Part shown: piece by piece, positions 3,585 to 62,393 of the stretch
How positions within the stretch are numbered: position 1 is the stretch's first letter
Layout of the letters: every line of letters starts with the position of its first letter
Assembly (NCBI RefSeq): GCF_000265295.1
Contig: NC_018002.1
Coordinates: 1,116,001 to 1,180,000, forward strand
DNA from: Sulfurospirillum barnesii SES-3
GTDB lineage: Bacteria > Campylobacterota > Campylobacteria > Campylobacterales > Sulfurospirillaceae
Length of the DNA stretch: 64,000 bases
Reading direction: 5' to 3'
Program-made: the position numbers and the translations under genes
Notes under the pieces: model-generated
Database searches by the model: none
Told to the model about the DNA's origin: nothing
Seen by the model: only the letters and a program-made list of their open reading frames with translations

Positions 3585-4256
3585 TTATTGAATGAGTTTG
3601 TGGCTTAAAATGGATCGTTGCTCATCTTGAGTGTAGTTAAATTTAAACTCCGCCTCTTTAAGATAATAGATAAAATTCTCCTTTTTAATGCCTTTAAAAT
3701 GTTCCATCCAACTTTCTAAAAAATGCCAAAAGTCGATGAGAGCGTTATTGAAACTCTCGTAGTGCGCGACTTTATGTTGGTTGAGGTAGCGTGCGTAGGT
3801 CTCTTTTTCAATGGAGTTTTCTTCTAAATTTTTAAGATGGGCAAATTGATCAGGGAGTAAAAGCGTGTGTATACGCTTACCATACAACATCCCTAAAATA
3901 CCGATAGCATCGAAAAGATACTTTGGTTTTCCTCGTTTACATGTAGGAAGATAATAGTACTCATCGTACTGTGAAAAGGTTTGTGTTTGCTCTGTGTAAA
4001 GGGTTTGGGAGTGTTCTATGAGTAAAAAGCGCAGTTTTTGGTAGGTTTTGCTAACGCTTGGGTAGTTGACTCCTAAACGTATGGCACACTCATTTGCACT
4101 GTGATTGGCGATAAAAGAGTCAATAATATGCATGTTTTGAGTGTATTTTACATGACTAAAGGTACGTTTACATGTAACGCAACGATACTGTGTGGAAGAG
4201 ACTTTGTACAGTTTGCGTTCTCCGCAAAAAATACACACGTTTTGTTCTGTTTTCAT
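3585..4256 (-). CDS. IS1595-like transposase, solitary, possibly domesticated
   Basis: A 223-residue protein with an N-terminal zinc ribbon (CIFCGERKLYK then CVTCKRTF), a short helix-turn-helix-like segment (NECAIRLGVNYPSVSKTYQKL) and a DDE-like core. The core shows DEYYYLPTCKRGK, LLLPDQFAHL, and a C-terminal stretch around FWHFLESWMEHFKGIKKENF. This order is that of IS1595/ISXO2 transposases. The position usually holding Glu in the 'IExFW' segment is Asp here (ALIDFW). I found no terminal inverted repeats or target duplication around it, so it may be an immobile remnant or a domesticated gene. One copy of the TTACATGTAA palindrome falls inside the gene and encodes part of the second zinc knuckle. 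Confidence 0.65.
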   Translation of the reverse strand: MKTEQNVCIFCGERKLYKVSSTQYRCVTCKRTFSHVKYTQNMHIIDSFIANHSANECAIRLGVNYPSVSKTYQKLRFLLIEHSQTLYTEQTQTFSQYDEYYYLPTCKRGKPKYLFDAIGILGMLYGKRIHTLLLPDQFAHLKNLEENSIEKETYARYLNQHKVAHYESFNNALIDFWHFLESWMEHFKGIKKENFIYYLKEAEFKFNYTQDEQRSILSHKLIQ

Positions 4257-4321
4257 CGTCTTATTTTTCCTAAAAATAACTAAGAAACTTCTTTTTTTAG
4301 CTCCTATTTAAAGAGTTGTTC

Positions 4322-4327
4322 TATAAT
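4322..4327 (+). promoter_or_regulatory. Putative -10 element of the hyp operon
   Basis: A perfect TATAAT lies 28 bp before the hypB start, with no convincing -35. This is common for sigma-70 promoters of Campylobacterota. AAGGAT at 4343-4348 is the likely ribosome binding site. Confidence 0.5.
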
Positions 4328-4355
4328 AGAGGAAAAATATGCCTAAGGATTTAAA

Positions 4356-5204: not shown

Positions 5205-5206
5205 CT

Positions 5207-6593: not shown

Positions 6594-7594
6594 GCAAAAA
6601 AATACTTCTCTCTCATGGCGGTGGCGGTGAAGAGACGCAAAGTTTGATTAAAGAGCTTTTTTTTAAACACTTTGAGAATGAGATTTTACTGCGTATGGAA
6701 GATGCGGCAAGTTTAGTGATGAATAGCACAAACATTGCTTTTACGACAGATTCTTTTGTGGTAAGTCCTCTTTTTTTTAACGGAGGAAACATCGGTAAAC
6801 TTGCCATTGCAGGAACGGTAAATGATTTGTGTATGATGGGAGCAAAGCCAAAATACCTAACCTGTTCGTTTATGATTGAAGAGGGGTTTGAATACGCAAA
6901 ATTGGAAGAAATTGTTATTAGTATGCGTGATGAGATGGCAAAAAGTGGTGTGAAAATTGTAGCGGGTGATACCAAAGTAGTTCCTCGTGGGGGTGTTGAT
7001 GGGTTATTTATCAATACCACGGGTATTGGGGAAATTATTTATAAAGGTATTTCTGCACATCATTTAGCAAACGATGATGTCATTATCGTTTCACATGAAG
7101 TGGGTAATCATGGGGCGTGTATTTTAGCTACTCGTGAAGAGATTGAGTTGGAGAGTGAGCTTCAAACGGACTGTGCAAGTTTATGGAAACCTGTGGAAGC
7201 GCTCATAAACGCAGGTATAAAAATCCATGCGCTTCGCGATGCCACCCGTGGAGGGCTTAGTGCGGTACTTAATGAATGGGCTGAGACATCAAAGGTGTGT
7301 ATTGAAGTGGATGAGGCTAAAATCCCTGTGGCAAAAGAAGTTAAAGGGATATGTGAGCTTTTAGGCTTTGAGCCTTATGAGTTCGCTAATGAGGGTACGA
7401 TGGTGATTGCCTTGCCAAAAGAAGAGGCACTAAAAGCGCTTGACGTACTTCAACACTTTCCCGAAACAGCACACGCTACCATTATTGGGAAGGTGACACA
7501 GGCCTTTACATGTAAAGTTATTTTACACACGCCGTGGGGTTCAGAGCGCTTTTTAGAACCGCCCAAAGGTGAGTTACTTCCAAGGATTTGTTAA
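6590..7594 (+). CDS. hypE: Carbamoyl-dehydrating protein HypE
   Basis: HypE dehydrates the thiocarboxamide on its C-terminal cysteine to thiocyanate, the source of the cyanide ligands. The protein (334 residues) starts at GTG 6590, which overlaps the hypD stop and has AAAGGAG upstream (6577-6583); this gives the canonical SKKILLSHGGGGEE start. It belongs to the PurM/AIR-synthase fold and ends in PRIC, the strictly conserved modified cysteine. A TTACATGTAA palindrome at 7506-7515 encodes the segment TCK near the C-terminus. HypF, its carbamoyl donor, is not encoded in this window. Confidence 0.97.
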   Translation: MSKKILLSHGGGGEETQSLIKELFFKHFENEILLRMEDAASLVMNSTNIAFTTDSFVVSPLFFNGGNIGKLAIAGTVNDLCMMGAKPKYLTCSFMIEEGFEYAKLEEIVISMRDEMAKSGVKIVAGDTKVVPRGGVDGLFINTTGIGEIIYKGISAHHLANDDVIIVSHEVGNHGACILATREEIELESELQTDCASLWKPVEALINAGIKIHALRDATRGGLSAVLNEWAETSKVCIEVDEAKIPVAKEVKGICELLGFEPYEFANEGTMVIALPKEEALKALDVLQHFPETAHATIIGKVTQAFTCKVILHTPWGSERFLEPPKGELLPRIC

Positions 7595-7935: not shown

Positions 7936-7970
7936 ACAGCGCCTAAGTCATCTTAATGTAAAATAAGTTT

Positions 7971-7980
7971 TTACATGTAA
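7971..7980. repeat. TTACATGTAA palindrome copy (intergenic)
   Basis: One of 32 exact copies in the window. It lies between hypA and the acetyltransferase gene, about 35 bp after the hypA stop. Confidence 0.8.
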
Positions 7981-8010
7981 TGTGTAATATCTATTGTGAA
8001 AAGAGATGTT

Positions 8011-8511: not shown

Positions 8512-8514
8512 GGT

Positions 8515-9156: not shown

Positions 9157-11710
9157 GAAGCTCTAAGGGTGCCTCAAGCGTACGTTTGAGAATATTCACA
9201 GGCGATTTTAGGGTGTCTAAGAGCAAGTGTGTTTCAATATTAGGCTCATCTAAAGTCCCTTTAACATCCACGTTGGTTGAAATACGTTTATCTTCACCTA
9301 AAATGAGACCACCAACAAGGGGTATAAAATCAATAGCGGAGCTAAAGGTTTTGAGCGTTTTAACACGCAATTTTAAATCCAGTGCATCGGTGTGCAAATC
9401 AACACTGCCTTTACCTGTAATATCTGCATTCTTCCCTCTAAGCTGAAACTCTTTAATGTTTAAGGTGTCTTCATTTTGTTCAAAAATAAGGGTACCCGTT
9501 TCAACAAAATAGCCCTCTTTACTAAAATTTGGGTCACTAAAAACAAGCAAAGAAGGAATGGTATTAATCGTTGCCATAAGGTTATTAAAAAACTTTAAAT
9601 CCTTAATAAAAGTATTGTGCATTTTAAAAACACCTTGTGTTGTTTTGAGTGTTGTAGGCTCTAGGCTAAGTTCAAAAGTGCCTTGATGAAAATAGGAGTG
9701 GTTAAAAAGAGCATTTATGCTTTCATCGTCCATGGCTTGTGCATGAAGCGTCAGCTGATTGTCTTTTTTTTGATACGAAAAAGAGGCAGTGCCTTTTTTT
9801 GATTCTAAATGAACTGTATCTTTAAAAAGACTTAAGGTGTAGCGATTAGAGAGTATTGTACGGCTACTGTTTGCATCTATAATAGAGCTATTCTCTCCAT
9901 AAAGTGTTGTTTTAATAGGAATATTTAAAGGTTCAGTGCTATTGGGGACCAAGAGGTCAAGATTCTTTACATGTAAAGCGATTTCCTTGTCTAAATGCAA
10001 CGCTAAGGCATAATCACTGGTGTAGGCATCAAGGGTTTTAGTGTTGGTTGTAAGGGTAATATCAAAATCTTTTACAGGAATGCCATTGGTAAGAAAAGGC
10101 GTGGAGACATCGTAAAGATTTAGTTTTGCCAAAAAACTTTCAAAATCTTGTGTGGTAACCTTTACACTCCCTTTTTCTATTCCATTTTCATACATGAAGG
10201 GTGAAATAGGAGCAATTTTTGAAAGGTCATTAAAAATAAATTGATTATTTTTAGGCTCAAAAATAATGTTCGTCTCAAGTCCTGGTAAACGCATGGTTGT
10301 CGTATTTTTATCAATTGTAAAAGAGGCTTTTTGATGTTTGAGGTTTTTTCCTTTTAAAAGTTCCATTTCTCCAAATTTTAACAACAGTGAACGAATATCA
10401 ATGGAGCCATTAAAATCAGAAGTTTTTGTTTCAAAAATGCCTGTAGTATCAATGTCAAAAAGGTTTTTGTATTGCAAATTAGCACGATTTAATGTCACAC
10501 GGTAATTATCGAGTAAAACCTCACCAGAACGTGTTGCCATTGGTAAACCACTGAGGTTAAAGGTACTAGGGGAGAGTTTAAATTCGCCTGTTGCATTAAT
10601 ATCATAGGGTAAAAATTTAATATCAAGTTTAACATGAGCCTCTGTTTTTCCTGAGGTCTGTGTAATAGGTACATCAATCTTAAAAGCATGTAAAATTTTA
10701 TGTATCGAAGCATCCAATGTAGCGGTCGCATTTAAATCCACCACAATACCTGTACCTTTGGTTAAAAGATTGTAAATGTAGACATCTGCTTGTTGAATCT
10801 CTTTTTGTTCATAGTAGGGCTCAAGCACATCAAAAAGAAGTTTATCTTCGTGCAGGGTAATCCCAATTTGCTTTGCAAAAGCAGGCGGTACACTAGGCTC
10901 AAAGCTAATGGTCGCATCTTTAACAGTAGCGTGACCTCTCATTTGCATTGGAAAATAATCAAGCGTTTGAATGTCCAATTGTCCCTCTAAAAACTCCAAA
11001 ATATACTCTTGCCCCACGATATTGGTATGAATCCAATCTTTAGCTAAAGGTTCTAATTCGACTATGGGTGATAAAAAATTCATAAAATCACTCAATGCTT
11101 GATTGGTAAAAGGTTCACTTTGAACGTGGTAGCTTAGAAGATTTTTTTGAAGTTCTAAACGTGTGCTACCTTTAAGCCCAAAAGTATCATACGCTCCTTC
11201 AAAACGGTAATTTTCTGCTTTTAAATCAAGATGGGCATTTCCCTTTACATGTAAAAAGAAATCTTTAAAGTTCGCTTCTAAAATGGTGACATCCAAAGCC
11301 GTTTTGGAATAAGGGGTGAGCATAAGCTTCACATCAAGGTGTTGGCTGGTGAGCTCAAACTGATTCTCTGCATAATATAAGGCGATACGCTCGTTTGCAT
11401 AAATGAGATTTTGAATGCTAATGTGTTTAAAAAATTGATTAAGATACGGAAGGCTTTGGATAATTTGAGTGCTCTCTTCTAGGGAGGTATCGGTTTGTGT
11501 GTGGGCATTGATTTCAAGGCTTTGAATGGTTACAATCAATTTTTTATCTAGTTTAATATATAATTGATCAACTTTTATTTTGGGCAGGACAAGAGAATCC
11601 AGCGAGATACCATACATAAGAGTACCAATTAACACTACAAAAAAAAGAACAATGAACAGAAAAAATTTCCAAATATTTTTAATCGCATGCGATATTGCTT
11701 TAATTATCAT
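9149..11710 (-). CDS. AsmA-like / DUF3971 periplasmic protein
   Basis: A large (853-residue) protein with one N-terminal membrane anchor (about residues 14-36, rich in F, V, L, I) and a long periplasmic region predicted to be mostly beta-strand. The C-terminal part (KEFQLRGKNADITGKGSVDL, then LKLRVKTLKTFSSAIDFIP and GGLILGEDKRISTNVDVKGT) is typical of the AsmA/YhdP/TamB family of bridge-like proteins. These move phospholipid between inner and outer membranes or affect outer-membrane biogenesis. The 5' end overlaps the divergent mltG by 59 bp, and the 3' end overlaps the HAD gene. It contains two TTACATGTAA copies, both encoding LHVK. Confidence 0.75.
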   Translation of the reverse strand: MIIKAISHAIKNIWKFFLFIVLFFVVLIGTLMYGISLDSLVLPKIKVDQLYIKLDKKLIVTIQSLEINAHTQTDTSLEESTQIIQSLPYLNQFFKHISIQNLIYANERIALYYAENQFELTSQHLDVKLMLTPYSKTALDVTILEANFKDFFLHVKGNAHLDLKAENYRFEGAYDTFGLKGSTRLELQKNLLSYHVQSEPFTNQALSDFMNFLSPIVELEPLAKDWIHTNIVGQEYILEFLEGQLDIQTLDYFPMQMRGHATVKDATISFEPSVPPAFAKQIGITLHEDKLLFDVLEPYYEQKEIQQADVYIYNLLTKGTGIVVDLNATATLDASIHKILHAFKIDVPITQTSGKTEAHVKLDIKFLPYDINATGEFKLSPSTFNLSGLPMATRSGEVLLDNYRVTLNRANLQYKNLFDIDTTGIFETKTSDFNGSIDIRSLLLKFGEMELLKGKNLKHQKASFTIDKNTTTMRLPGLETNIIFEPKNNQFIFNDLSKIAPISPFMYENGIEKGSVKVTTQDFESFLAKLNLYDVSTPFLTNGIPVKDFDITLTTNTKTLDAYTSDYALALHLDKEIALHVKNLDLLVPNSTEPLNIPIKTTLYGENSSIIDANSSRTILSNRYTLSLFKDTVHLESKKGTASFSYQKKDNQLTLHAQAMDDESINALFNHSYFHQGTFELSLEPTTLKTTQGVFKMHNTFIKDLKFFNNLMATINTIPSLLVFSDPNFSKEGYFVETGTLIFEQNEDTLNIKEFQLRGKNADITGKGSVDLHTDALDLKLRVKTLKTFSSAIDFIPLVGGLILGEDKRISTNVDVKGTLDEPNIETHLLLDTLKSPVNILKRTLEAPLELLK

Positions 11711-14893: not shown

Positions 14894-14903
14894 TTACATG
14901 TAA
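14894..14903. repeat. TTACATGTAA palindrome copy between icd and mdh
   Basis: It occupies most of the 26-bp gap between the icd stop and the TTG start of mdh, immediately upstream of the AAAAAAGGAG ribosome binding site. Here the motif sits within a transcription unit rather than at its end. Confidence 0.8.
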
Positions 14904-14916: not shown

Positions 14917-15867
14917 TTGGCACAGGGAAAAAAAGTCTCTATTATTGGTGCAGGAAACGTAGGTGCAACCATCTGTTATTGGTTGGCGATGCGTAAAAGT
15001 TGCCGTGAAATTGTCATGATTGATTTAATTGAGGGTGTGGCACAAGGAAAAGCTTTAGATATTTCCCAAGCCACCAGTCCTGAGGGCAGTCATACACAAA
15101 TTCGAGCGTCCAGTGAGTATGCGTCAATTGAAAACAGTGATATTGTGGTTATTACTGCAGGCAGTCCACGCAAACCTGGCATGAGTAGAGATGATTTATT
15201 ATTGATCAATGCAAAGATTACAAAAGGTATTGTAGAACAACTAAAAACGTATGCACCTGAGGCTATTGTGATTACGGTATCCAATCCTTTAGACGCCATT
15301 ACCTATGTGGCACAAAAAGTGGGAAATTATCCTCGAAATCGTGTTATTGGGATGGCAGGTATTTTGGACAGTTCACGTATGGAGACCTTTATTTCTGAAA
15401 AATTGGGTTTTGGGTATGGACAAGTAACTGCAAGCGTTATGGGCGGACATGGGGACGACATGGTGCCTCTGCCTCGTTACTCTTCGGTGAATGGTGTTGC
15501 CCTTAAAGATTTGCTTTCGCACGGTGAAATTGCAGAGATTATTGAAAAAACCCGTCATGGTGGTGCTCAAATTGTGCGTTGTATGGGAACATCCGCCTAT
15601 TATGCGCCTGCTAATGCTACGGTAAAGATGATAGAAGCCATTTTAAGTGATTCACACTCTATTTTTCCTTGTGCAACCCTACTAGAGGGTGAATATGGCT
15701 ATTGCGATACCGTCAATGGTGTTCCTGTTGTCTTAGGCAAAAATGGGATTGAAAAAATTGTAGAATTACCTTTAAATGAGGACGAACAAGCTCAGTTTGC
15801 TAAAAGTATTGCATCCGTGGATGCGTTGTTGGAAACATTACATGTAAACCATTTTTTTGGAACTTAA
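14917..15867 (+). CDS. mdh: Malate dehydrogenase (LDH/MDH type)
   Basis: NAD-dependent interconversion of malate and oxaloacetate. The start is a TTG at 14917 with a strong AAAAAAGGAG site, giving the Rossmann motif VSIIGAGNVGAT close to the N-terminus. SPRKPGMSRDDLL carries the Arg that marks malate rather than lactate dehydrogenases. Other family segments are VSNPLDAITYV, GMAGILDSSRM and the catalytic-His segment GGHGDDMVPLPRYSSV. At 316 residues it has the normal length. A palindrome copy at 15838-15847 encodes LHVN near the C-terminus. Confidence 0.95.
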   Translation: MAQGKKVSIIGAGNVGATICYWLAMRKSCREIVMIDLIEGVAQGKALDISQATSPEGSHTQIRASSEYASIENSDIVVITAGSPRKPGMSRDDLLLINAKITKGIVEQLKTYAPEAIVITVSNPLDAITYVAQKVGNYPRNRVIGMAGILDSSRMETFISEKLGFGYGQVTASVMGGHGDDMVPLPRYSSVNGVALKDLLSHGEIAEIIEKTRHGGAQIVRCMGTSAYYAPANATVKMIEAILSDSHSIFPCATLLEGEYGYCDTVNGVPVVLGKNGIEKIVELPLNEDEQAQFAKSIASVDALLETLHVNHFFGT

Positions 15868-21168: not shown

Positions 21169-21202
21169 TTTACATGTAAAGAAATTTTTCTTTACATGTA
21201 AA
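21169..21202. terminator. Bidirectional hairpin made of two inverted palindrome copies
   Basis: Arms 21169-21184 (TTTACATGTAAAGAAA) and 21187-21202 are perfect reverse complements over 16 bp with a 2-bp centre. Each arm contains one TTACATGTAA. The structure fills the gap between convergent oorC and a chemoreceptor gene, as expected for a terminator acting on both strands. Confidence 0.75.
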
Positions 21203-25420: not shown

Positions 25421-25430
25421 TTACATGTAA
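25421..25430. repeat. TTACATGTAA palindrome copy between fumC and tex
   Basis: Located between convergent stop codons (25389 and 25433), directly after the fumC hairpin. Confidence 0.8.
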
Positions 25431-27565: not shown

Positions 27566-27575
27566 TTACATGTAA
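27566..27575. repeat. TTACATGTAA palindrome copy upstream of tex
   Basis: Located in the divergent region between tex and the Fic antitoxin gene, 18 bp from the tex start codon. It marks the left edge of the 27.6-30.1 kb accessory block. Confidence 0.8.
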
Positions 27576-27814: not shown

Positions 27815-28403
27815 TGAGAGTCCTATCTACATTGAAGGAACGGATGTTCCTAAAAACAAACTAGGCATTGCTGATGCAGATATTATCCACGAAATAGAAA
27901 ACAATCTTCTCTTTCAAGCCTACGAAAAATTTCCCTCCCAAATCACTGAAAAAACACTCTTCGATGAAACCTATTTCATCAATCTTCACAAAAAAACATT
28001 TGAGTCTTTGTACGATTTTGCAGGAGTGTATCGCACGGTCAATATGAGCAAAGGCGACTCACAATTTTGCCTAGCATAGTACCTTCCAAGCGAGTCTACA
28101 AGAATCTTTACCGAACTCAAAAAGGACGCTTATCTTCTTACATGTAAAGATAAAAAAGAATTTGCAAAAAAACTGGCATACTACAAAAGTGAGCTGATAG
28201 CCTTGCATCCTTTTTATGAACTAAACGGTCGAATACTCCGCCTTTTCATCGATATGCTTTGCCTTTACAATGGTTATAATTTTATTGATTATTCCATGAC
28301 TATTGAAAATAATGCCTATATCGAAGCATCAATTTTGTGTGTGCAATATGCTGACAGTTCTAAGATGGAAGAGATTATTGAAAATGGATTAACAAAAAGT
28401 TAA
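27795..28403 (+). pseudogene. Fic-family AMP transferase interrupted by an in-frame amber codon
   Basis: A Fic-domain toxin reading frame of ~200 residues with a single in-frame TAG at 28077-28079. The frame continues without shift to the TAA at 28403. Before the stop: MSKYRLDESPIYIEGTDV, LHKKTFESLYDFAGVYR and the flap-like SKGDSQFCLA. After it: YLPSESTRIF and the active-site loop HPFYELNGRILR. The loop keeps the catalytic His, acidic residue, Asn and Arg of HxFx(D/E)xNxRxxR, with Leu replacing the usual Gly. A CAG-to-TAG change would explain the break. A palindrome copy at 28138-28147 encodes TCK. It is probably an inactivated toxin beside an intact antitoxin; sequencing error or suppression remain possible. 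Confidence 0.8.
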
Positions 28404-30157: not shown

Positions 30158-30167
30158 TTACATGTAA
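30158..30167. repeat. TTACATGTAA palindrome copy upstream of mntA
   Basis: Located in the 86-bp gap between the mntA start and the 3' end of the membrane-anchored unknown gene. It marks the right edge of the accessory block. Confidence 0.8.
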
Positions 30168-32827: not shown

Positions 32828-32837
32828 TTACATGTAA
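32828..32837. repeat. TTACATGTAA palindrome copy after the chemoreceptor hairpin
   Basis: Eight bases downstream of the hairpin that follows the chemoreceptor gene. It is the last copy before the 33.1-39.3 kb catabolic cluster, which contains none. Confidence 0.8.
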
Positions 32838-39334: not shown

Positions 39335-39363
39335 AAAAGGGAAAAGGTAGCCTTTTCCCTTTT
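39335..39363 (+). terminator. Strong intrinsic terminator of the aminotransferase/TRAP/ALDH cluster
   Basis: A perfect 13-bp stem (AAAAGGGAAAAGG and its complement) with a TAG loop runs directly into a T-run and then a TTACATGTAA copy. It sits 17 bp after the aldehyde dehydrogenase stop codon. Confidence 0.85.
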
Positions 39364-39372
39364 TACATGTAA
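39363..39372. repeat. TTACATGTAA palindrome copy after the ALDH terminator
   Basis: It begins at the last base of the terminator stem, so the T-run of the terminator is shared with the palindrome. Confidence 0.8.
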
Positions 39373-41025: not shown

Positions 41026-41035
41026 TTACATGTAA
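41026..41035. repeat. TTACATGTAA palindrome copy before the nitroreductase stop
   Basis: Located three bases from the 3' end of the minus-strand nitroreductase gene, in the convergent gap. Confidence 0.8.
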
Positions 41036-43170: not shown

Positions 43171-43839
43171 ATGCAGACATTTTATGGGAATAGAGAAAAA
43201 TGTTACCGCTGTTATAGACCCAAAAGTTCGTGTATGTGTCGTCATATTCGTCCCATTAATACGCACACTAAATTCATCATTTTAATGCACCCAAAAGAGT
43301 TTAAAAAGACCAAAAATGGGACGGGGCATTTGACGCATCTCTCTTTACCAAATTCTGAGCTTTTTATGGGGATTGACTTTAGTGACAATGCACGCATTAA
43401 TGAGATTATCGCAACGCATGAGAGTTTTATTCTCTACCCATCTCCTCATGCTATCAACCTTACTCACACAAATCTTCTGGAAAAAAAAGCTTTACATGTA
43501 AAGAGACCTATGGCGATTTTTCTCATTGATTCGACATGGGCATGTTCGCTTAAAATGATGCGAGAGAGTATGAATTTACACTCCCTTACACATATTAGTT
43601 TTGATGCGACAAAACCTTCAGCGTTTAGAATTAAAGAGCAACCTTTGGCGTATTGTTTATCCACCATTGAATCGACGCTTCGGGTATTAGAACTTCTTCA
43701 TGAGTGGCATCATGAAAGCATCTGTCCAACACAATTAGAAGACTTCCTTCGCCCTTTTTATGCGATGGTTGAGTACCAACTAGCGTGTATTGAAGCCTCT
43801 TCGCATCATGCACTTAGATTCAAGCCTAAAACATTGTAA
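43171..43839 (+). CDS. DTW-domain tRNA-uridine aminocarboxypropyltransferase-like protein
   Basis: A 222-residue DTW-domain protein related to TapT/YfiP, which adds an aminocarboxypropyl group from S-adenosylmethionine to uridine in tRNA (acp3U). An N-terminal cysteine cluster (CYRCYRPKSSCMC) probably binds zinc. The SPOUT-like core has LMHPKEFKKTKNGTGHL and the eponymous motif as DSTW (LIDSTWACSLKMMRES). A palindrome copy at 43492-43501 encodes LHVK. It lies 35 bp upstream of a secreted glycosidase gene. Confidence 0.85.
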   Translation: MQTFYGNREKCYRCYRPKSSCMCRHIRPINTHTKFIILMHPKEFKKTKNGTGHLTHLSLPNSELFMGIDFSDNARINEIIATHESFILYPSPHAINLTHTNLLEKKALHVKRPMAIFLIDSTWACSLKMMRESMNLHSLTHISFDATKPSAFRIKEQPLAYCLSTIESTLRVLELLHEWHHESICPTQLEDFLRPFYAMVEYQLACIEASSHHALRFKPKTL

Positions 43840-44962: not shown

Positions 44963-44978
44963 CCTTTACATGTAAAGG
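44963..44978. repeat. Extended palindrome CCTTTACATGTAAAGG
   Basis: A perfect 16-bp palindrome begins 3 bp after the glycosidase stop. It contains the TTACATGTAA core at 44966-44975. Confidence 0.8.
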
Positions 44979-45030: not shown

Positions 45031-47382
45031 ATGAAACAAAATCCACTCTCTTTGGAAGCTTTAGCGCAAGTGGATGCTTATTGGAGGGCATCGAATTATT
45101 TAAGTGTGGGGCAGATTTACCTATTGGACAATCCTTTGCTCAAAGAGCCTCTTAGCATAAAACATATCAAACCTCGTCTTTTAGGGCATTGGGGGACAAC
45201 TCCTGGGCTTAATTTTATCTATACCCATATGAACCGCCTTATCAATCAGTACGATTTAAATATGCTTTTTATCGCAGGGCCAGGGCATGGAGGACCTTCG
45301 GTGGTAGCACAGACCTATTTAGAAGGGGTTTACAGTGAAGTGTATCCTGAAATTTCACACGATGAAGAGGGTCTTCAAAAGCTCTTTAAACAGTTCTCCT
45401 TTCCAGGCGGTATTCCTAGTCATGCTGCACCTCAAACACCTGGTTCGATTCATGAGGGAGGTGAGCTTGGCTATGCACTCTCCCATGCCTATGGAGCGGT
45501 TTTTGACACGAAAGATTTAATAGCATGTTGTGTGATAGGCGATGGGGAGGCGGAGACAGGACCACTGGCTGCTGCATGGCACTCCAATAAATTTTTAGAC
45601 CCCAAACGTGATGGTGTGGTTTTGCCTATTTTGCATCTTAATGGTTATAAAATTGCCAATCCAACCATCCTCGCCCGTATTTCGCATGAAGAGTTAGAAG
45701 AGCTATTTTGTGGTTATGGATATGAGCCTTATTTTGTTGAGGGTGATGAGCCAGAACTTATGCATCAAAGAATGGCAGCAGTTTTAGATGAAATGGTGCA
45801 GAAGATTAAAACGATTTGGCACAATGCACGTACGTTAGATTCCCATGAGCGTCCACGCTGGCCGATGCTGATTTTACGAACGCCTAAAGGCTGGACTGGC
45901 CCTAAAGAAGTCGATGGACTCAAAACAGAGGGGCACTGGAGGTCGCATCAAGTACCTCTTTCCTCTTTAGAGAGCAAACCTGAGCACATTACTATTTTAG
46001 AAAAATGGCTGAAAAGTTATAAGCCTGAAGCGCTTTTTGATGAGAAGGGAAAACTCTTTGCGCACATTGCTTCGTTAGCACCCAAAGGTGAAAAACGTAT
46101 GGGTGCCAATGTATATACCAACGGTGGGCAGTTACTTAAGCCGTTAGTGCTACCTGATTTTACAGCGTATGCGGTGAATGTTCCTGCTCCTACTCAAAGT
46201 AGTGCCGAGGCTACACGCATTTTGGGGTATTATTTGCGGGATGTTATGCGAGAAAATATGCAAAATTTCCGTGTGTTTGGCCCTGATGAAACGGCATCCA
46301 ATCGTTTAAGCGCACTCTTTGAAGTGACCAATCGTGTCTGGATGGCTGAAAAAAACAGCTTTGATGAGCACCTAAGTTCGGATGGTCGTGTGATGGAGAT
46401 ACTCTCAGAACACACCTGCCAAGGGTGGCTTGAGGGGTATTTGTTGACAGGTCGTCATGGCTTTTTCTCGTGTTATGAGGCGTTTATTCATATTGTTGAT
46501 TCGATGTTTAACCAACATGCTAAATGGCTTAAAGTGACCAGTCGTGAAATACCGTGGCGAAAACCCATTGCTGCACTCAATTATCTTTTAACCTCACATG
46601 TTTGGCGACAAGACCATAATGGATTTTCACATCAAGACCCTGGATTTATTGATGTCGTGGTGAACAAAAAAGCACACATTATCAATGTCTATTTTCCACC
46701 CGATGCCAATACCCTTTTATGGGTGGGCGATTGGTGTTTGAAAAGCAGGGATTGCATTAATGTTATTGTGGCGGGCAAACAGCCTGAAGTGCAGTGGCTG
46801 AACATGAATGATGCCATAGCGCATTGTGAAAAAGGCATGGGCATTTGGGAGTGGGCGAGTGATAAAGATAAGCCTGATGTGGTCATGGCATGTTGTGGCG
46901 ATGTGCCTACACTTGAAACCTTAGCCGCAGTGAGTCTTTTAAGGGTGCTTGTACCAAGCTTGAAGATTTGGGTGGTTAATGTTGTTGATTTAATGGCTTT
47001 ACAACCCAAAGAAGAACACCCTCACGGATGGACACACGAAGCGTATAATGCGCTTTTCCCCAAAGATGTTCCTACGATTTTTGCGTACCATGGCTACCCG
47101 TGGTTGATTCATCGTTTGGCATACAAACGAGCGCACCATGAACATTTACATGTAAGAGGTTACAAAGAGGAGGGCACGACCACAACCCCGTTTGATATGG
47201 TGGTTTTAAATGATACCGATAGGTTTCATCTGGTAATGGATGTGATGCATCGTGTGCCTAAAATGAAACCCTATCAAGAGGAAGTATGCCAAAAAATGTC
47301 TGCAAAGCTGGCTGAACATAAGGCATATATTGAGGAGTATGGCATTGATATGCCAGAAATTTTAACGTGGAAGTGGGAATGA
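45031..47382 (+). CDS. xfp: Phosphoketolase (D-xylulose 5-P / fructose 6-P)
   Basis: A TPP enzyme that splits xylulose 5-phosphate (or fructose 6-phosphate) with phosphate to acetyl phosphate and glyceraldehyde 3-phosphate (or erythrose 4-phosphate). The 783-residue length is normal. Motifs are [58 protein letters not shown] and the TPP-binding [19 protein letters not shown]. No other pentose-phosphate gene is adjacent. Acetyl phosphate formed here could be turned into ATP by acetate kinase. A palindrome at 47146-47155 encodes LHV. Confidence 0.96.
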
Positions 47383-47397: not shown

Positions 47398-47432
47398 TCT
47401 ACCTCTTTTACATGTAAAGAAAAAGAGGTAGA
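47398..47432. terminator. Hairpin after phosphoketolase enclosing a palindrome copy
   Basis: The 12-bp arms TCTACCTCTTTT and AAAAGAGGTAGA pair perfectly. The loop holds most of a TTACATGTAA copy (47408-47417). It begins 16 bp after the xfp stop. Confidence 0.7.
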
Positions 47433-48848: not shown

Positions 48849-48858
48849 TTACATGTAA
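48849..48858. repeat. TTACATGTAA palindrome copy after the antiporter gene
   Basis: It begins 8 bp after the stop codon, inside an extended near-palindrome GCTTTTACATGTAAAGC. The rest of the 216-bp gap to the next gene shows no feature that I recognise. Confidence 0.8.
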
Positions 48859-50294: not shown

Positions 50295-50326
50295 TTTACA
50301 TGTAAGGCAAATGCCTTACATGTAAA
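50295..50326. terminator. Bidirectional hairpin made of two inverted palindrome copies
   Basis: Arms 50295-50309 (TTTACATGTAAGGCA) and 50312-50326 are perfect 15-bp complements with a 2-bp centre. Each contains one TTACATGTAA. It lies exactly between the convergent DAACS and CPA2 antiporter genes. Confidence 0.75.
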
Positions 50327-52266: not shown

Positions 52267-52863
52267 ATGAAAAAAGAGATACTTTACTTAACCGAATACC
52301 TTGCGAAAAGCAAAGAAAACCCATTCTATCCACGCCTAGTAGAAAACCTTAGTGAATGTTCCTTGTATACACCTACGCATTTTACACAGGCACACATCTG
52401 TGCTTTACTTAAACATCACTCCTTGCGTGTTCCTAGCAATGAAGAAGAGGGTATTCAACAGCTTGATATGTGTTTGCAAAAATCTTTACCTGAAGCACTC
52501 AATGAAGCCAAAAAAACGCTTTTTATGACACTTTTACAAAGCAATTTTCCAAAGAAAAAAAGTTTTTTAAATGTTTCTTTAGAGCTTTTTATCTCTCAGC
52601 TTGAGCCTGCTGAAAAAAGTATTTATGAAAATCTTTTAGCTTATGTTGTAGGTATAAATCGTGCGCTAGCACTTTTTTTCGTCTTTGCAAAAGAGGAGCA
52701 AAAAGAGCTAACACCAGAGCATTTGGTCACGTTTGCGCAGTCTTTACATGTAAGCTTAATGGCATTGATTTTTAATGATGATGAGCAAGCCCTTTTAGAA
52801 GAAGGCTTAACATCTTTGTTAGGGGTTTATTTAAGTTTATATGGAAAATACCTTTACATGTAA
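52267..52863 (+). CDS. Unknown soluble helical protein
   Basis: A 198-residue protein that I do not recognise. It was started at ATG 52267 (MKKEILYLTEYLAKSKENPF); the 25 extra residues of the longer reading overlap the marC start region and look non-coding. It appears largely alpha-helical and cytoplasmic, leucine- and glutamate-rich, without cysteine motifs or membrane segments. Two palindrome copies touch it. One at 52744-52753 encodes LHV; the other at 52854-52863 encodes the last residues Tyr-Met, and its TAA is the stop codon. Its neighbours (marC, yggS) give no clear hint. Confidence 0.65.
   Translation: MKKEILYLTEYLAKSKENPFYPRLVENLSECSLYTPTHFTQAHICALLKHHSLRVPSNEEEGIQQLDMCLQKSLPEALNEAKKTLFMTLLQSNFPKKKSFLNVSLELFISQLEPAEKSIYENLLAYVVGINRALALFFVFAKEEQKELTPEHLVTFAQSLHVSLMALIFNDDEQALLEEGLTSLLGVYLSLYGKYLYM
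52854..52863. repeat. TTACATGTAA palindrome copy supplying a stop codon
   Basis: The final TAA of the palindrome is the in-frame stop of the preceding gene, whose last codons are TAC and ATG. It is the only copy here that is read in the third frame. Confidence 0.8.
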
Positions 52864-52904: not shown

Positions 52905-53582
52905 TTATTTAAATAAAATACTCCCTAAGCGAATCATATTCGCACCACATGCAATAGCAAGTTCAAAATCATTGCTCATACCCATAGAACAATATTTTGC
53001 CCCTTTACTTTGGAGTGATTCAAAAAGCGTGTGGGTTGTCTCAAAACTTTTTTGAATCAACTGTGTATCTTCGCTGTGTGCTCCAATGCTCATAACTCCC
53101 TTAAGCTGAATGTTTTTACATGTAAGGCTGATTTGCTCATAAATTTCTAAAGCTTCTTCAGGAAGAACACCTGCTTTTTGCTCTTCATAGGCACTGTTGA
53201 TTTGTAAAAGCGCATTCATCTGTTTATTCTTTACATGTAAACGTTTATCGAGTTCTTGAGCAAGTTCTAGTGAGCTGAGTGAGTGCATTAAAAAGGGGTC
53301 AAGGTCAATGAGTTGATTGATTTTGTTGGTCTGCAAACGCCCGATAAAGTGCCACTCTAAAGGAAGATGTGCGAGTGCGTGTACTTTTTCACTCATGTCT
53401 TGAATCTTATTTTCTCCAAAACAGCGTTGCCCTATGTTATACATGGCTTCAATCATCTGGGGCGTTGCGCTTTTACTCGCTGCGACAATTTTGACGATAT
53501 GATGACCACTCACGCCCAAACGTGCTTTTTCAATACGGGTAAGAATCGCATCCATTGTTGTGACAAATTGTTTAGTTTCCAT
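52905..53582 (-). CDS. yggS: PLP homeostasis protein (YggS/PROSC family)
   Basis: A single-domain alanine-racemase-fold protein that binds pyridoxal 5'-phosphate and buffers its level. The PLP lysine is in KIVAASKSATPQMIEAMY. Other family segments are GENKIQDMSEKVHAL, EWHFIGRLQTNK and SMGMSNDFELAIACGANMIRLGS. The start METKQFVTTMDA (53582) was chosen; ATG 53603 is seven codons earlier. Either start overlaps the end of rseP, so it is coupled to that gene. Two palindromes occur in it (53116-53125 TCK, 53231-53240 LHVK). Confidence 0.92.
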   Translation of the reverse strand: METKQFVTTMDAILTRIEKARLGVSGHHIVKIVAASKSATPQMIEAMYNIGQRCFGENKIQDMSEKVHALAHLPLEWHFIGRLQTNKINQLIDLDPFLMHSLSSLELAQELDKRLHVKNKQMNALLQINSAYEEQKAGVLPEEALEIYEQISLTCKNIQLKGVMSIGAHSEDTQLIQKSFETTHTLFESLQSKGAKYCSMGMSNDFELAIACGANMIRLGSILFK

Positions 53583-54630: not shown

Positions 54631-55172
54631 TATTTGACCTCTTTTTTCGTATAACCTATAATATATTCATAACCAGAATAGAGTGTCAGTGCCACTGCAA
54701 TCCATAAAAGAAGTTCTGCAAAAGGCCAATTCATCATTAAAAAGCCAATGGCAATCATCTGAAAGACCGTTTTGACTTTTCCAGCCATACTTGCCGCAAT
54801 ATTTTTCCCCTCGCTGATTGCTGCCACACGCAATCCTGTAATAAAAAATTCACGGGTAAGGATTAAAAAAATAGCCCAAGGATTGGCTCTGTCTATCATC
54901 ATTAAACCTAAAAATGCCGCCAATGTGAGCATTTTATCTGCTAAGGGGTCTAAAATGGCGCCTAATTGTGTTTTTTGATTCCAGCTTCGAGCAATATAGC
55001 CATCAAAAAAATCAGTTGCACTGGCGAGTACAAAAATAAGGGCTGCAAAATAGTCCAACCAGCTTACATGTAAGCCTGCAAACAAAGCTATATCACGATT
55101 GACTAAAAAAATAAACATGAGAGGCGCTAAGGCAATTCTCATGCTTGCAAGGGCATTGGGAAGATTCATCAT
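54630..55172 (-). CDS. pgsA: Phosphatidylglycerophosphate synthase PgsA
   Basis: An integral membrane CDP-alcohol phosphatidyltransferase that makes phosphatidylglycerophosphate from CDP-diacylglycerol and glycerol 3-phosphate, the first step to phosphatidylglycerol and cardiolipin. The active-site pattern DG-x2-AR-x8-G-x3-D-x3-D is seen as DFFDGYIARSWNQKTQ followed by LGAILDPLADKML. The 180 residues carry about four to five helices. It overlaps the upstream SDR gene by 4 bp and rseP by one base. A palindrome copy encodes LHVSW. Confidence 0.94.
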   Translation of the reverse strand: MMNLPNALASMRIALAPLMFIFLVNRDIALFAGLHVSWLDYFAALIFVLASATDFFDGYIARSWNQKTQLGAILDPLADKMLTLAAFLGLMMIDRANPWAIFLILTREFFITGLRVAAISEGKNIAASMAGKVKTVFQMIAIGFLMMNWPFAELLLWIAVALTLYSGYEYIIGYTKKEVK

Positions 55173-56829: not shown

Positions 56830-56830
56830 T

Positions 56831-58132: not shown

Positions 58133-58138
58133 TGTGTA

Positions 58139-59203
58139 TCATCTCCTATCGCTTCCTATAAGCTCACTAATATGTGTAAAACCATCTCGGTTCATACGCT
58201 CTAAAATGCCCAAATTGATTTCACGATTTAGAGATGGACCTTTAAAAATAAAGGCTGAGTAAATTTGGATTAAGCTAGCACCCGCTTTAAGCCTTCGATA
58301 CGCTTCATCGGCTGAGTCAATGCCTCCAACAGAGATAAGCGTGGTTTTTCCAAAGAACTCTTTAGCTAAAGCTTCAAACATGTTAAAGCTTTTTTCACAT
58401 AAAACTTTACCGCTAATGCCTCCAAAATCTTTGGCATTAGGAAGCAGTGAATAATCAATCGTTGTATTGGTTGCGACAATACCTTGTGCACCATTTTCAA
58501 GGGCACATGAACAAAGCTCTAGTGCCTCTTTTATTTCTAAGTCAGGTGCAATTTTTAGTAAAACAGGTTTACATGTAAGCTCTTTTGCCATCACAAAAAG
58601 CTCTTTAATAAACTGTTCATTTTGCAAATCTCGAAGTCCTGGAGTATTAGGAGAAGAGATGTTGATCACCAAAAAATCACTTAAATCTTTAAAGCGTTTA
58701 ATAAGCTTTTCATAATCACTGAGTGCATTCTCCGCACTGGTAGTTTTATTTTTTCCAATATTGGCTACTAAAGGTGTTGCAAAAGGGTAGAGTGATTCTA
58801 AGCGTTTTGCAATTTTATGCATACCATCATTGTTAAATCCCATAGCATTTTGAATGGACTCTTGTTCAGGAAAACGAAAACAACGAGGTTTTGCATTACC
58901 ATTTTGAGGCTCAGGTGTCATGGTGCCATATTCAATATGTCCAAATCCAAGGGCTGTAAGCATTTTTATCATGGTGGCATTTTTATCAAACCCTGCCCCT
59001 AATCCTACAGGATTGTGAAAGGTGCGATCAAACAGCGTTTGTTCTAAACGTTTATCGTGAATAAAAAAGCGCTCAGCCAAAAAGGAGAGAACAAAAGGTG
59101 TATAGTTTGCCCCATGTTTGAAAAAAAATTCTGCAATGGTGTGTGCATTCTCTGGTGAGAAGTTAAACATCAATTTTTTCATCATTTTATAGCAATCAAA
59201 CAT
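58139..59203 (-). CDS. pyrD: Dihydroorotate dehydrogenase, quinone-dependent (class 2)
   Basis: The membrane-associated flavoenzyme that oxidises dihydroorotate to orotate in pyrimidine synthesis, passing electrons to the quinone pool. The N-terminal helical extension (about residues 1-40) marks class 2. Core segments are NPVGLGAGFDKNATMIKML, FGHIEYGTMTPEPQ, NISSPNTPGLRDLQ (catalytic Ser) and ISVGGIDSADEAYRRLKAGA. AAAGGA lies before ATG 59203 and a -10 element is upstream. It starts the seven-gene pyrD-yggS operon. Confidence 0.95.
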   Translation of the reverse strand: MFDCYKMMKKLMFNFSPENAHTIAEFFFKHGANYTPFVLSFLAERFFIHDKRLEQTLFDRTFHNPVGLGAGFDKNATMIKMLTALGFGHIEYGTMTPEPQNGNAKPRCFRFPEQESIQNAMGFNNDGMHKIAKRLESLYPFATPLVANIGKNKTTSAENALSDYEKLIKRFKDLSDFLVINISSPNTPGLRDLQNEQFIKELFVMAKELTCKPVLLKIAPDLEIKEALELCSCALENGAQGIVATNTTIDYSLLPNAKDFGGISGKVLCEKSFNMFEALAKEFFGKTTLISVGGIDSADEAYRRLKAGASLIQIYSAFIFKGPSLNREINLGILERMNRDGFTHISELIGSDRR

Positions 59204-59232
59204 CTTTTATTTCCTTTGGTATAAAGTATGCG

Positions 59233-59238
59233 ATTATA
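59233..59238 (-). promoter_or_regulatory. Putative -10 element of pyrD operon
   Basis: TATAAT on the minus strand lies 30 bp before the pyrD ATG, within the 74-bp gap to msbA. It suggests that pyrD and the genes after it have their own promoter. Confidence 0.5.
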
Positions 59239-59277
59239 CTCTATGAAAGATAAAAGATGGTTGATTTTGGGCTTTTC

Positions 59278-60993
59278 TTAGTGTTGAAGCCCTTTAAGTT
59301 TAAGATACTCACTTGAGCTTGCTAAGAGTTCTTCATCGCTTCCTATCGCACAAATATGACCGTGTTTTAGAAGGGCAATTTTATCAGCCTTTTTAATGGT
59401 TGAGAGACGATGTGCGATAACAAAGGTAATTTTATCTTTAATAAGATTTTCAATGGCTTCAGTAATTTTTTGCTCACTTTGTGTATCGAGTGCGGATGTT
59501 GCTTCATCAAGAATCAGCACTTGAGGATTTGAATAGATCGCTCTTGCAATGGCAATGCGTTGTCTTTGTCCCCCTGAGAGATTGGTTCCAAATTCATCTA
59601 AGTGTGTAAAAATACCATCAGGAAGTTTTTGTATAAAATCATAGGCATTGGCTTTTTGCAGTGCATCTATGACTTTTGTCTCATCAATTTCTTTTCCATA
59701 CGCAACATTGGCGGCAATACTATCGTGAAAAATATAGACCCGTTGCGTCACCATAGCAATATTATCTCTTAGATCATATAGGTTAAATTCTCTAAGATCA
59801 ACTCCATTGATACGAATAGCACCTGAAGAAGGATCGTAAAAGCGCATCAGCATATTCATAAGTGAACTTTTGCCACCACCACTATCTCCAATAAGCGCTA
59901 TCATCTCGCCCGCTTTGGCTTCAAGGTTCACCCCATGGAGTGCTTGTTTTTCTCCATAATGCAGTGAAGTATTTTCAAAAGAGATTGTATCAACCTGTGT
60001 AGGAAAAGCATGGGTACCATTTTGAATATCTGTGCGTTGGTCGAGTAAAAAGAAAATACGCTCACTAGCAACCAGGGCATCTTGCATTTTATTGTAAAGA
60101 GATGAGATTTTTTTAATAGGGGTATAGAGCATAAAAAGTGCTGTTAAAAAGGAAAAAAATGAGCCAACACTCATCGTTTCATCAATGACTTCTCCTCCAC
60201 CAATAATCACAACAACGGCGACACCCACTGCCCCAATAGTTTCCATTAAAGGACTCACCAATTCATTCACTTTAACAGATTTCATGGTTAGCTTAAAGTA
60301 GCGCTCATTATCCTTTTGAAAGAGAGCATGCTCATAGTTTTGTGCATTGTTAGCTTGAATCACTTCGATATTATTAAAAATTTCACTCAGTTTTGCTGTA
60401 ATATCAGAAATTTTTTCTTGAGAGGCTTTGGAAATTTTTTTCATTTTTTTAGCCATTTTGCTCAGTGGGTAGATGGCTAAAGGCATGATAATCAAAGAAA
60501 AGAACGCCAATTTTGGACTTTGGTAAATGACCACTCCCATGAGCCCCACAATGGTGAATGATTCACGTAAAAATTCAGGGATAATGCTTGAAACCACAGA
60601 TCTTATACGTTCTACATCGCTGGTATTTCGGCTAATAAGCTCGCCTGTTCTATAGGTATGAAAAAAGGAGAGATTGAGCTTAAGAAGGTTTCCCAAAATA
60701 TCTTCACGCAGACGTTTGATAATATTTTGACCAATGTAGGCAGTTGAACAGGCTTGGAGGTATTTTCCCCCTTCTTTTGCCGCATACACTGCGATAATGG
60801 CATAAGGAAGCAAATAGAGCATTTCTCTGTCTTTGGCAATAAAAATTTCATCTAAAAGAGGTTTGACCAAATACGCAGATGCTGCTGTTCCGCCACTAGC
60901 AAGTGTCATACCAATAACCACTAAAATAAAATAAGGAATATAGTCCTTATAAAAAGGGGCAAATCGCTTTAAAACATCTTTCAGGCTGTACAT
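59278..60993 (-). CDS. msbA: Lipid A/lipid export ABC transporter MsbA
   Basis: A homodimeric ABC half-transporter of 571 residues that flips lipid A-core or other lipids. The N-terminal ABC_membrane region (about residues 1-310) has six helices. The nucleotide-binding domain has Walker A (IGDSGGGKSSLMN), Q-loop, signature LSGGQRQRIAIARAI, Walker B (VLILDEATSALD) and the His of the switch (FVIAHRLSTI). It overlaps cysS by one base. The position in a murJ-cysS-msbA series supports an envelope-lipid role. Confidence 0.93.
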   Translation of the reverse strand: MYSLKDVLKRFAPFYKDYIPYFILVVIGMTLASGGTAASAYLVKPLLDEIFIAKDREMLYLLPYAIIAVYAAKEGGKYLQACSTAYIGQNIIKRLREDILGNLLKLNLSFFHTYRTGELISRNTSDVERIRSVVSSIIPEFLRESFTIVGLMGVVIYQSPKLAFFSLIIMPLAIYPLSKMAKKMKKISKASQEKISDITAKLSEIFNNIEVIQANNAQNYEHALFQKDNERYFKLTMKSVKVNELVSPLMETIGAVGVAVVVIIGGGEVIDETMSVGSFFSFLTALFMLYTPIKKISSLYNKMQDALVASERIFFLLDQRTDIQNGTHAFPTQVDTISFENTSLHYGEKQALHGVNLEAKAGEMIALIGDSGGGKSSLMNMLMRFYDPSSGAIRINGVDLREFNLYDLRDNIAMVTQRVYIFHDSIAANVAYGKEIDETKVIDALQKANAYDFIQKLPDGIFTHLDEFGTNLSGGQRQRIAIARAIYSNPQVLILDEATSALDTQSEQKITEAIENLIKDKITFVIAHRLSTIKKADKIALLKHGHICAIGSDEELLASSSEYLKLKGLQH

Positions 60994-62393
60994 TAAGCGT
61001 TTACCTTTTCCCAGTGTGTACCATTTGCTGTATCCATGAGTTGAATTTGTTTGGCTTCTAAAAGAGTGCGAATCGTGTCAGCTTTGGCAAAATCTTTGGC
61101 TTTTTTGGCTTCTGTTCGTTCTTGAAGTAATGCTTCAATGTCTGCTTTTTCTACTTCACTCACACCCATTTGAAAATACATGTAGGGATGATAAAGACCA
61201 ATGCCTAAGAGTTCTTCAATCCATTTCAAATTTGCATGCGTTGTGGCTTTGAGGGGTTTGTCTTTAGGATTTGCATCGAGCATTTCATTGGCGGCAGAGA
61301 TCATTTCATCCAAACTGGCCAATGCTTTTGAAATGTTTAGATCATCTTTAAGTGCTTCAAGCATCAACTCTTTAAAAGAGGATGAAATCTGTGAAGGAGG
61401 TGTTTCAAAAATACGTTTCTTCAGCCGATAGAGTTTATCAAGGCGTTTTTTACTCATCAGTAAATCTTCTTCAGAGAAGTTAAAATTGGCTCTGTAGTGT
61501 GTTGCAAGCAAATAAAAGCGTAAAACTTCACCACTGTAGTTGGCAAGAGCATCTTTTAAAAAGAAGCTATTACCTAAAGATTTGCTCATTTTCTCACCAT
61601 TAATCGTGACAAAGCCATTGTGCATCCAGTATTTTGCAAGTTCTTGATGGCTTTTACATCTGGTTTGTGCGGCTTCATTTTCGTGGTGGGGGAAAAGCAA
61701 ATCAGCCCCACCTGCATGAATGTCAATCTGAAAATCACCCTCACTTGCAAGATGTTTTTCTATCATCGCCGAACATTCAATGTGCCATCCTGGACGACCC
61801 GTTCCAAAAGGGGCAGGGTAGCTTGGTTCATTCTCTTTTGAAAATTTCCACAGAGCAAAATCTTTTTGGTCTTTTTTCTCTTCTTTTTGCTCTACACGTG
61901 ATTGTGAAGCCTCTTCTTCCACAAGGCGATGACTTAAGCAGAGGTATTTTTTATCTTTTGACGTATCAAAATAAATCCCATCACTGGTCGCATAAGCAAC
62001 CTTTGTATCTAGCATGGATGCAACAAAAGAGATAATCTCTTCAACCGTTTCTGTCGCTTTTGGCTCAATATCAGCATCCTTTACATGTAAAGCATGCATT
62101 TCTGCTTTGTAACGCTCAATATAGTGCGATGTAATCGCTTCTAGGGATTGATGGCTCTCGTGCATTTTCTTAATAATTTTATCATCAATATCTGTAAAAT
62201 TTTTGACAAATGTGACCTTATAGTTTAATGCAATAAAAACACGGCGCAATAAATCAAAAGCAATAGCACTTCTTGCATGGCCTAAATGAGCATCATCATA
62301 AACGGTTGGACCACAGACATAAATTTTAACTTCATTGTCTCTAATGGGGATAAAGGGTAGTTTTTTCTTGTGTACCGAATCATAAATAAGCAT
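60993..62393 (-). CDS. cysS: Cysteinyl-tRNA synthetase
   Basis: Class I aminoacyl-tRNA synthetase for cysteine. The start at ATG 62393 (MLIYDSVHKKKLPF) fits the family; the six-residue longer reading is less likely. The catalytic motif HIGH appears as DAHLGHARSAIAFD, the zinc ligands as VCGPTVYDD, GRPGWHIECSAM and FPHHENEAAQ, and the second signature as KMSKSLGN. It has 466 residues. It overlaps the end of murJ by 14 bp and the start of msbA by one base. A palindrome copy encodes LHVK. Confidence 0.96.
   Translation of the reverse strand: MLIYDSVHKKKLPFIPIRDNEVKIYVCGPTVYDDAHLGHARSAIAFDLLRRVFIALNYKVTFVKNFTDIDDKIIKKMHESHQSLEAITSHYIERYKAEMHALHVKDADIEPKATETVEEIISFVASMLDTKVAYATSDGIYFDTSKDKKYLCLSHRLVEEEASQSRVEQKEEKKDQKDFALWKFSKENEPSYPAPFGTGRPGWHIECSAMIEKHLASEGDFQIDIHAGGADLLFPHHENEAAQTRCKSHQELAKYWMHNGFVTINGEKMSKSLGNSFFLKDALANYSGEVLRFYLLATHYRANFNFSEEDLLMSKKRLDKLYRLKKRIFETPPSQISSSFKELMLEALKDDLNISKALASLDEMISAANEMLDANPKDKPLKATTHANLKWIEELLGIGLYHPYMYFQMGVSEVEKADIEALLQERTEAKKAKDFAKADTIRTLLEAKQIQLMDTANGTHWEKVNA

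Follow-up and report, generated by a model that had tools for sequence, protein, structure and literature searches.

The window analysed here is a 64,000-nucleotide stretch (positions 1,116,001-1,180,000) of the 2,510,109-bp single-contig chromosome of Sulfurospirillum barnesii SES-3, and it holds 32 exact copies of the 10-bp palindrome TTACATGTAA. A sequence-only reading of this DNA had listed the 32 positions and estimated that base composition would yield fewer than one copy; every position proved exact, and 100 shuffles gave a mean of 0.14 copies and two at the most. The enrichment extends well beyond the window. Across the chromosome the word occurs 1230 times, about once per 2,000 letters, against 6 occurrences of a reversed-word control, and 464 kb of the genome hold 250 copies where an order-4 Markov model with the exact sites masked predicts 0.34 and an order-5 model 0.76. 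Over-representation of this strength, on the order of one copy per 1-2 kb, characterises the DNA uptake sequences (DUS) of Neisseriaceae and the uptake signal sequences (USS) of Pasteurellaceae. Here we describe the anatomy, placement, conservation and distribution of the palindrome, and weigh what it may be for.

Anatomy and placement of the palindrome

The strictly kept part of the site is the 8-mer TACATGTA, which occurs 359 times in 624 kb of the genome, 320 of these as TTACATGTAA; the window contains six further 8-mer cores that lack one or both outer bases. Weaker symmetric flanks surround the core, with CT before and AG after, giving the 14-mer CTTTACATGTAAAG (7 of the 32 window sites), and A-rich positions follow 5-8 bases out. 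Both coding and intergenic sites show these flank preferences, and the CT preference on one side does not depend on that on the other (Fisher p = 0.64). From the base pattern we infer a putative twofold-symmetric reader that would cover about 14 to 26 bp. Near-miss copies are scarce: one-off variants of the 10-mer number 57 against the 320 perfect copies, and in 34 of the 57 the differing base is the outermost one. For the 8-mer core, one-off variants show no excess at all (171 observed, 180 expected), and they stand at background in two relatives as well (53 against 52 expected in G015, 52 against 54 in G005); the sites are thus all-or-none. A surplus of perfect over singly mismatched copies is an attribute common to USS and DUS, unlike regulatory binding sites (PMC1626085).

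Within the window the sites lie both in and between genes, as assigned by a simple gene caller, and all are recorded without strand ('.'). Coding sites lie at 7506-7515, 9967-9976, 43492-43501 and 62081-62090, each with the full 14-mer, and at 11245-11254, 15838-15847, 25963-25972, 26845-26854, 47146-47155, 52744-52753, 53116-53125, 53231-53240, 55064-55073 and 58569-58578. Three intergenic sites follow directly 3' of a stop codon (14894-14903, 48849-48858 and 44966-44975, the last a full 14-mer), and two lie between convergent genes (25421-25430 and 41026-41035). Other intergenic copies are found at 4168-4177, 7971-7980, 27566-27575 (full 14-mer), 28138-28147, 30158-30167, 32828-32837, 39363-39372 and 47408-47417. 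Two pairs, each between convergent genes and able to form a hairpin, complete the intergenic picture: 21170-21179 with 21192-21201 (22 bp apart, the second a full 14-mer), and 50296-50305 with 50316-50325 (20 bp apart). At 52854-52863 the TAA of the site is itself the stop codon of a gene; TTACATGTAA has TAA on both strands. That intergenic DNA is enriched, as the sequence-only reading had claimed, holds up, with its count revised from 15 to 17 of 32 sites in 4,658 intergenic bp. The same reading had pointed to the absence of sites from a catabolic cluster at 33.1-39.3 kb and from the sucCD-oor genes. We attach no special weight to this, because chance suffices: the window has two gaps longer than 5 kb (6,535 and 5,332 bp), and about 1.2 of the 31 gaps would be expected to exceed 6.5 kb. 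Selective avoidance of either cluster was accordingly rejected.

The preference for gene ends is clear on the larger scale. Over the 624 kb, 208 sites fall in genes (0.36/kb) and 111 between them (2.15/kb), and site density rises from 1.15/kb in divergent to 2.25/kb in tandem and 5.36/kb in convergent intergenic regions; the order is the same once paired sites are removed (1.15, 1.84 and 3.57/kb). Of the 79 intergenic sites in the 464-kb set whose distance was measured, 37 have their centre at most 20 bp after a stop codon. Gap lengths over 624 kb are approximately exponential apart from a surplus of very short gaps, in which hairpin-capable neighbours 10-30 bp apart number 14 against 3.0 expected from even density. 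Twenty genome segments are evenly filled (chi2 9.9, df 19). Regular spacing and large site-free islands were thereby rejected. Two related S. diekertiae plasmids carry 4 copies each where chromosomal density would predict about 17; the 624 kb of the S. barnesii genome contain no site-depleted islands. Among the viral contigs listed with the 14-mer, most carry one copy.

Conservation, dialects and loss among relatives

Sites are kept at fixed positions between species to a degree that far exceeds their surroundings. In a relative at 86.4% identity over 141 aligned kb (G005), the alignment covers 86 sites, of which 83 are identical, compared with 37.4% of control 10-mers; in a second at 81.8% identity (G015, 146 kb aligned), 75 of 85 are identical, compared with 19.8%. 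In the S. barnesii sequence set behind these counts some stretches overlap (L027, L028 and a 200-kb piece), so that a few sites are doubled; a non-overlapping 200-kb comparison agrees, with 59 of 62 (G005) and 53 of 60 (G015) identical, and 35 and 37 of 97 sites unaligned. Synonymous bases are kept too. Where the four spanned codons encode the same amino acids, nucleotide identity holds at 41 of 41 sites in G005 (control 52.2%) and 30 of 31 in G015 (control 33.4%), and where the spanned amino acids have changed the site is still intact in 10 of 13 and 22 of 28 cases. The sequence-only reading had suggested comparing sites between species, and the comparison bears out their conservation. Positions conserved beyond their flanks are likewise a feature of uptake sequences: 71% of neisserial DUS are reported to be exactly conserved in all aligned genomes, and DUS, whose positions are conserved, are over-represented in the core genome (PMC2397512).

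We surveyed 44 genomes of the family and 298 of the order. Counts of TTACATGTAA in the family range from 6 to 1496, and the core TACATGTA is at least twice as frequent as its reversed control in 43 of 44 genomes. The exception, G026 (28 against 25), has TATCATGATA instead, in 166 copies. Further words replace or accompany the first: G036 prefers CTACATGTAG (10 copies in 100 kb against an expectation below 0.05), and in G021 the second base or its mirror is the deviating one in 18 of the 25 one-off 10-mers, while 7 of 11 places aligned to S. barnesii sites read TNACATGTNA, as in TGACATGTCA. Among the 298 genomes of the order, TATCATGATA peaks at 1549 copies (G083) and 1009 (G174), both in genus g35 of family f7, and one locus there (L167) packs 17 copies into 21 kb. 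Outside the S. barnesii family, at least 30 copies of TTACATGTAA occur only in family f17 (G139 367, G160 340, G210 96, G190 48, G229 31), and at least 30 of TATCATGATA only in f7 (8 genomes). The four words TTACATGTAA, CTACATGTAG, TNACATGTNA and TATCATGATA have the centre CATG in common. Replacement of a palindrome by alternate words in relatives is also known of the highly iterated palindromes (HIP) of cyanobacteria; their HIP1 word, GCGATCGC, differs from ours, as does the phylum. In Sulfurimonas sp. RIFOXYD12_FULL_33_39 (L164), ACATGT occurs 23 times in 21 kb against 3.3 expected, 7 of these as TACATGTA, which is likely another dialect.

Several relatives show the word relaxed, decaying or lost, in samples that are small (15 aligned sites in G009, 2 in G020, 8 in G010 and 9 in G017). 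In G009, of the same genus, 49 copies of TTACATGTAA are found and none of the 15 aligned S. barnesii sites is kept, with 2-5 mismatches at each. G020 (238 copies) has one-off cores in excess, 32 against 16.6, as expected of decay. In G010 (412 copies) ACATGT is kept and the outer bases vary, and in G017 (934 copies) the core is intact and the outer base relaxed, with no core decay. Judged by ComEC, the competence gene searched, loss of competence was rejected as the cause of the low counts: a match occurs in 41 of the 44 family genomes, S. barnesii included, and among them are G009, G010, G011 (a short match), G017 and G020. As a separate observation, GATC is strongly depleted, with observed-to-expected ratios of 0.36 in S. 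barnesii (over 624 kb), 0.36 in G005 and 0.31 in G015; the deficit is milder in G009 (0.71) and almost absent from G021 (0.92).

An orphan adenine methylase as candidate partner

A search of the S. barnesii genome for D12 and PF01555 methylase families returned a single D12 adenine methylase, at 2,225,021-2,225,989 on the minus strand (PF02086, 7.2e-41), and no PF01555 match. Genes for a transglutaminase-like protein, a MerT-like protein and a two-component pair are among its neighbours; no restriction gene was found among the neighbours checked, and the genome has no match to the ICEA family. No relative of the methylase in the PDB was found at 1e-3. Across the order, ICEA occurs in 25 of 298 genomes, and in 23 of these 25 it lies at most 1.4 kb from a homologue of the S. 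barnesii methylase, which therefore belongs to the subfamily found beside ICEA/NlaIII endonuclease genes. iceA1 is 52% identical to NlaIII (PMC2749054), and Helicobacter pylori hpyIM has been called CATG-specific, with an iceA1/nlaIII homologue mentioned (PMC4687069). Because its homologues adjoin ICEA genes and hpyIM is described as CATG-specific, the likely target of the methylase is CATG, the centre of every dialect. The enzyme thus resembles the NlaIII/HpyI (iceA1-hpyIM) restriction-modification systems that recognise CATG in belonging to the same ICEA-linked subfamily, and differs from them in standing alone in a genome devoid of an ICEA match.

Within the genus, copy number follows the methylase. 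Among members at least 90% complete, the median is 1169 copies with the enzyme (n = 14) and 238 without it (n = 5: G009, G010, G011, G017 and G020; p = 0.005), the p value for association with iteration ranging from 0.005 to 0.007. Less complete members omitted from this comparison were G003 (1035), G022 (934) and G006 (1405, in two pieces) with the methylase, and G001 (840) and G018 (608) without it. Outside the family, 53 genomes have a homologue of at least 385 bits, and 9 of these reach at least 30 copies of either TTACATGTAA or TATCATGATA, as do 4 of the 216 without one (p = 9e-5); both cut-offs were chosen after seeing the data, and weaker homologues (such as that of G154, 213 bits) were scored as absent. 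These statistics ignore phylogeny; the iterated genomes come from three families (f1, f7 and f17). Where the ICEA partner is present, 1 of 21 genomes is iterated; where it is absent, 8 of 32 are (p = 0.07). The methylase therefore follows copy number in the genus and more weakly across the order, but it fails to do so among the other members of the family, and we regard it as a candidate partner of the word and not a proven cause.

Stretches of two further methylase-bearing genomes, G058 (80 kb) and G190 (60 kb), contain no clear iterated palindrome, G190 having its 48 copies of TTACATGTAA genome-wide. Bacteroidota loci with methylase homologues likewise show no strongly iterated CATG palindrome; small excesses occur there, for example CATCATGATG, 3 against 0.16. 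Around the methylase in ten genus members (L063-L072), TCACGTGA is found 23 times in 199 kb against 2.6 expected, in copies that all surround the same gene and hence are probably not independent. In G136, where the methylase lies beside an ICEA gene (L223-L226), CATG has an observed-to-expected ratio of 1.31 and GCATGC occurs 68 times against 34 expected. The S. diekertiae plasmids carry a second, diverged methylase copy (L392, 1692-2732; L393, 6933-7829), whose match on pSDIE1 spans several short annotated genes; contig C2 of G016 and S. diekertiae plasmid NZ_CP059996.1 have the second methylase gene of G016 at the same place.

A proposed self-DNA mark weighed against other roles

We interpret TTACATGTAA as the core of a genome-wide self-DNA mark that would act like DNA-uptake sequences, a reading to which we give a probability of roughly 0.58. 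We favour it because the preponderance of perfect over near-miss copies, the positional and synonymous conservation, the permissive placement, the inverted pairs, the scarcity on two plasmids and the dialects built on a fixed core resemble DUS and USS. In the mechanism we envision, a twofold-symmetric reader in the natural-transformation machinery would recognise the roughly 14-bp CTTTACATGTAAAG with its A-rich flanks and favour DNA that carries it, and transformation within the population would keep restoring perfect copies. Restoration of this kind would lead to all-or-none sites, to conservation at fixed positions and to accumulation at the least constrained gene 3' ends. The centre of the word may in addition be methylated by the orphan CATG-type adenine methylase, as RAATTY is by CtsM in Campylobacter jejuni, which takes up only DNA so methylated (PMC10046745, citing Beauchamp 2017). 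A bolder version is a methylation-gated palindromic uptake code, in which an orphan CATG methylase derived from an NlaIII-type restriction-modification system would mark the centre of a 10-14 bp palindrome, self would be known by sequence and methyl mark together, and the TTACATGTAA, CTACATGTAG, TNACATGTNA and TATCATGATA dialects would isolate species sexually across Campylobacterota; this we put forward tentatively, as possible at best.

Several observations weigh against a self-DNA mark. DUS are not known to be palindromic. The USS cores displayed in PMC1626085 are not palindromes. G009 has ComEC yet only its 49 copies, so that competence by itself is no explanation of loss. A chromosomal binding protein could account for the conservation too. 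Close pairs were scored against an even density, and their excess stems partly from the clustering of sites between genes. The 15 listed of 258 papers do not name Sulfurospirillum and so offer no report that it is transformable. As regards the methylase, its presence is uncorrelated with core density in the family outside the genus (13 genomes with, 6 without; p = 1.0), and iterated words are found in four genomes that have no full-length homologue: G017 (934 copies), G025 (265), G027 (567) and G160 (340).

The closest competitor takes the palindrome to be HIP1-like, made and kept by the orphan methylase together with methylation-directed mismatch repair, or by another in-cell reading of methylation, independently of uptake. 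In its favour stand the methylase itself, which is of the NlaIII/HpyI kind, has its likely target at the centre of every dialect, is the sole D12 enzyme found and has no restriction partner in the neighbours checked; the homologues beside ICEA in most ICEA-bearing genomes; and the associations with copy number in the genus and outside the family. Departures from the 10-mer fall mostly on the outermost base, a pattern that Elhai also reports for HIP1, and Elhai 2015 gives a methylase link for HIP1 and the alternate HIPs, as well as HIP1 genomes that lack the methylase. However, of the 53 methylase-bearing genomes outside the family 44 reach 30 copies of neither tested word, iterated words persist in G017, G025, G027 and G160, which lack the enzyme, and the supporting counts carry the phylogenetic and cut-off caveats given above. 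A methylase with a 4-bp target cannot alone specify a word of 10-14 bp. One-off copies of HIP1, moreover, are common in many cyanobacteria (Elhai), whereas core one-offs show no excess here. We consider this explanation unlikely. The methylase as sole cause was rejected on the four methylase-free genomes and the absent correlation in the rest of the family. Those four could use a substitute enzyme of another methylase family.

Nucleoid or chromosome organisation, in which a putative dimeric DNA-binding protein would fold, space or segregate the chromosome by way of the roughly 1200 sites, is in our judgement rather improbable. The twofold symmetry, the independent CT half-flanks, the A-rich flanks extending to about 26 bp in all, the even filling of the 20 segments, the strong positional conservation and the smaller number of sites on the two related plasmids would suit such a protein. 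The spacing is nevertheless random and not regular, G009 of the same genus does without the sites (0 of 15 aligned places kept), the 3'-end preference and inverted pairs are not expected, and regulatory binding sites have a looser consensus (PMC1626085). A role of the palindrome as RNA at gene ends, in terminators or other elements, would suit the excess 3' of genes and the hairpin-forming close pairs, yet no fold is predicted for a 14-mer on its own (0.0 kcal/mol), most sites are single and 208 of 319 lie inside genes, so that we hold it to be highly improbable and reject it as the main role. Transcription-factor operators were rejected too, for the sites are too many, lie largely in genes and do not tolerate one-off cores. 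Chance or composition has a negligible probability and was rejected, since shuffles, the reversed word and the Markov models all fail to yield the observed counts.

The palindrome can be set beside several known systems. Like the DUS of Neisseriaceae, TTACATGTAA has many copies, perfect ones in excess of one-offs, fixed positions, a preference for permissive regions, inverted pairs, and family-wide dialects with a fixed core; DUS dialects have CTG in common and copies in the thousands, and inverted DUS pairs at terminators were described by Frye et al. (PMC3630211). Unlike DUS it is a perfect palindrome, belongs to another phylum and has a possible methylase link. It differs from the Pasteurellaceae USS in its symmetry, and biased uptake has been demonstrated for the USS of Haemophilus influenzae. 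With HIP1 and the alternate HIPs it has in common a palindromic and iterated nature, alternate words and outer-base deviations, as well as a link, here a possible one, to orphan methylases that target a part of the word. Besides word, phylum and the behaviour of core one-offs, it differs in that the presumed methylase target covers 4 of 10 bases, compared with GATC and CGATCG within 8. CtsM with RAATTY in C. jejuni comes from the same order and likewise involves a palindromic motif whose adenine methylation decides uptake; the target differs, and the passages on it mention no iterated 10-bp word. The sequence-only reading had named uptake sequences, HIP1, nucleoid organisation, methylases and mismatch processing as candidates; an uptake-like mark now appears the favoured one and a methylase link possible, while HIP1 remains a good analogy that the core one-offs do not follow.

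We could not find a self-recognition tag described for this group. Judged by titles and abstract openings, none of the papers that a full-text search for TTACATGTAA returned, with most subscription papers outside its scope, concerns such an iterated word, and a full-text search for DNA uptake sequences with Sulfurimonas found none. In the literature on Sulfurospirillum, methyltransferases and palindromes, the term 'palindrom' occurred in a Sulfurospirillum-strain paper as part of the name CRISPR only, and a term search of the available text of Elhai 2015 gave no CATG.

If a self-DNA mark is indeed what the palindrome represents, a further lineage beyond Neisseriaceae and Pasteurellaceae would possess a dense self-DNA code, with dialects and natural losses inside one genus, and two ideas that now stand separate, iterated uptake words and methylation-dependent uptake, would be joined. 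The species series, in which sites are variously full, relaxed, decaying or lost, makes testable what maintains such words: a drive from uptake, the action of methylation and repair, or a function in the chromosome. A confirmed mark could also offer a practical rule for transforming Sulfurospirillum, including its organohalide-respiring strains.

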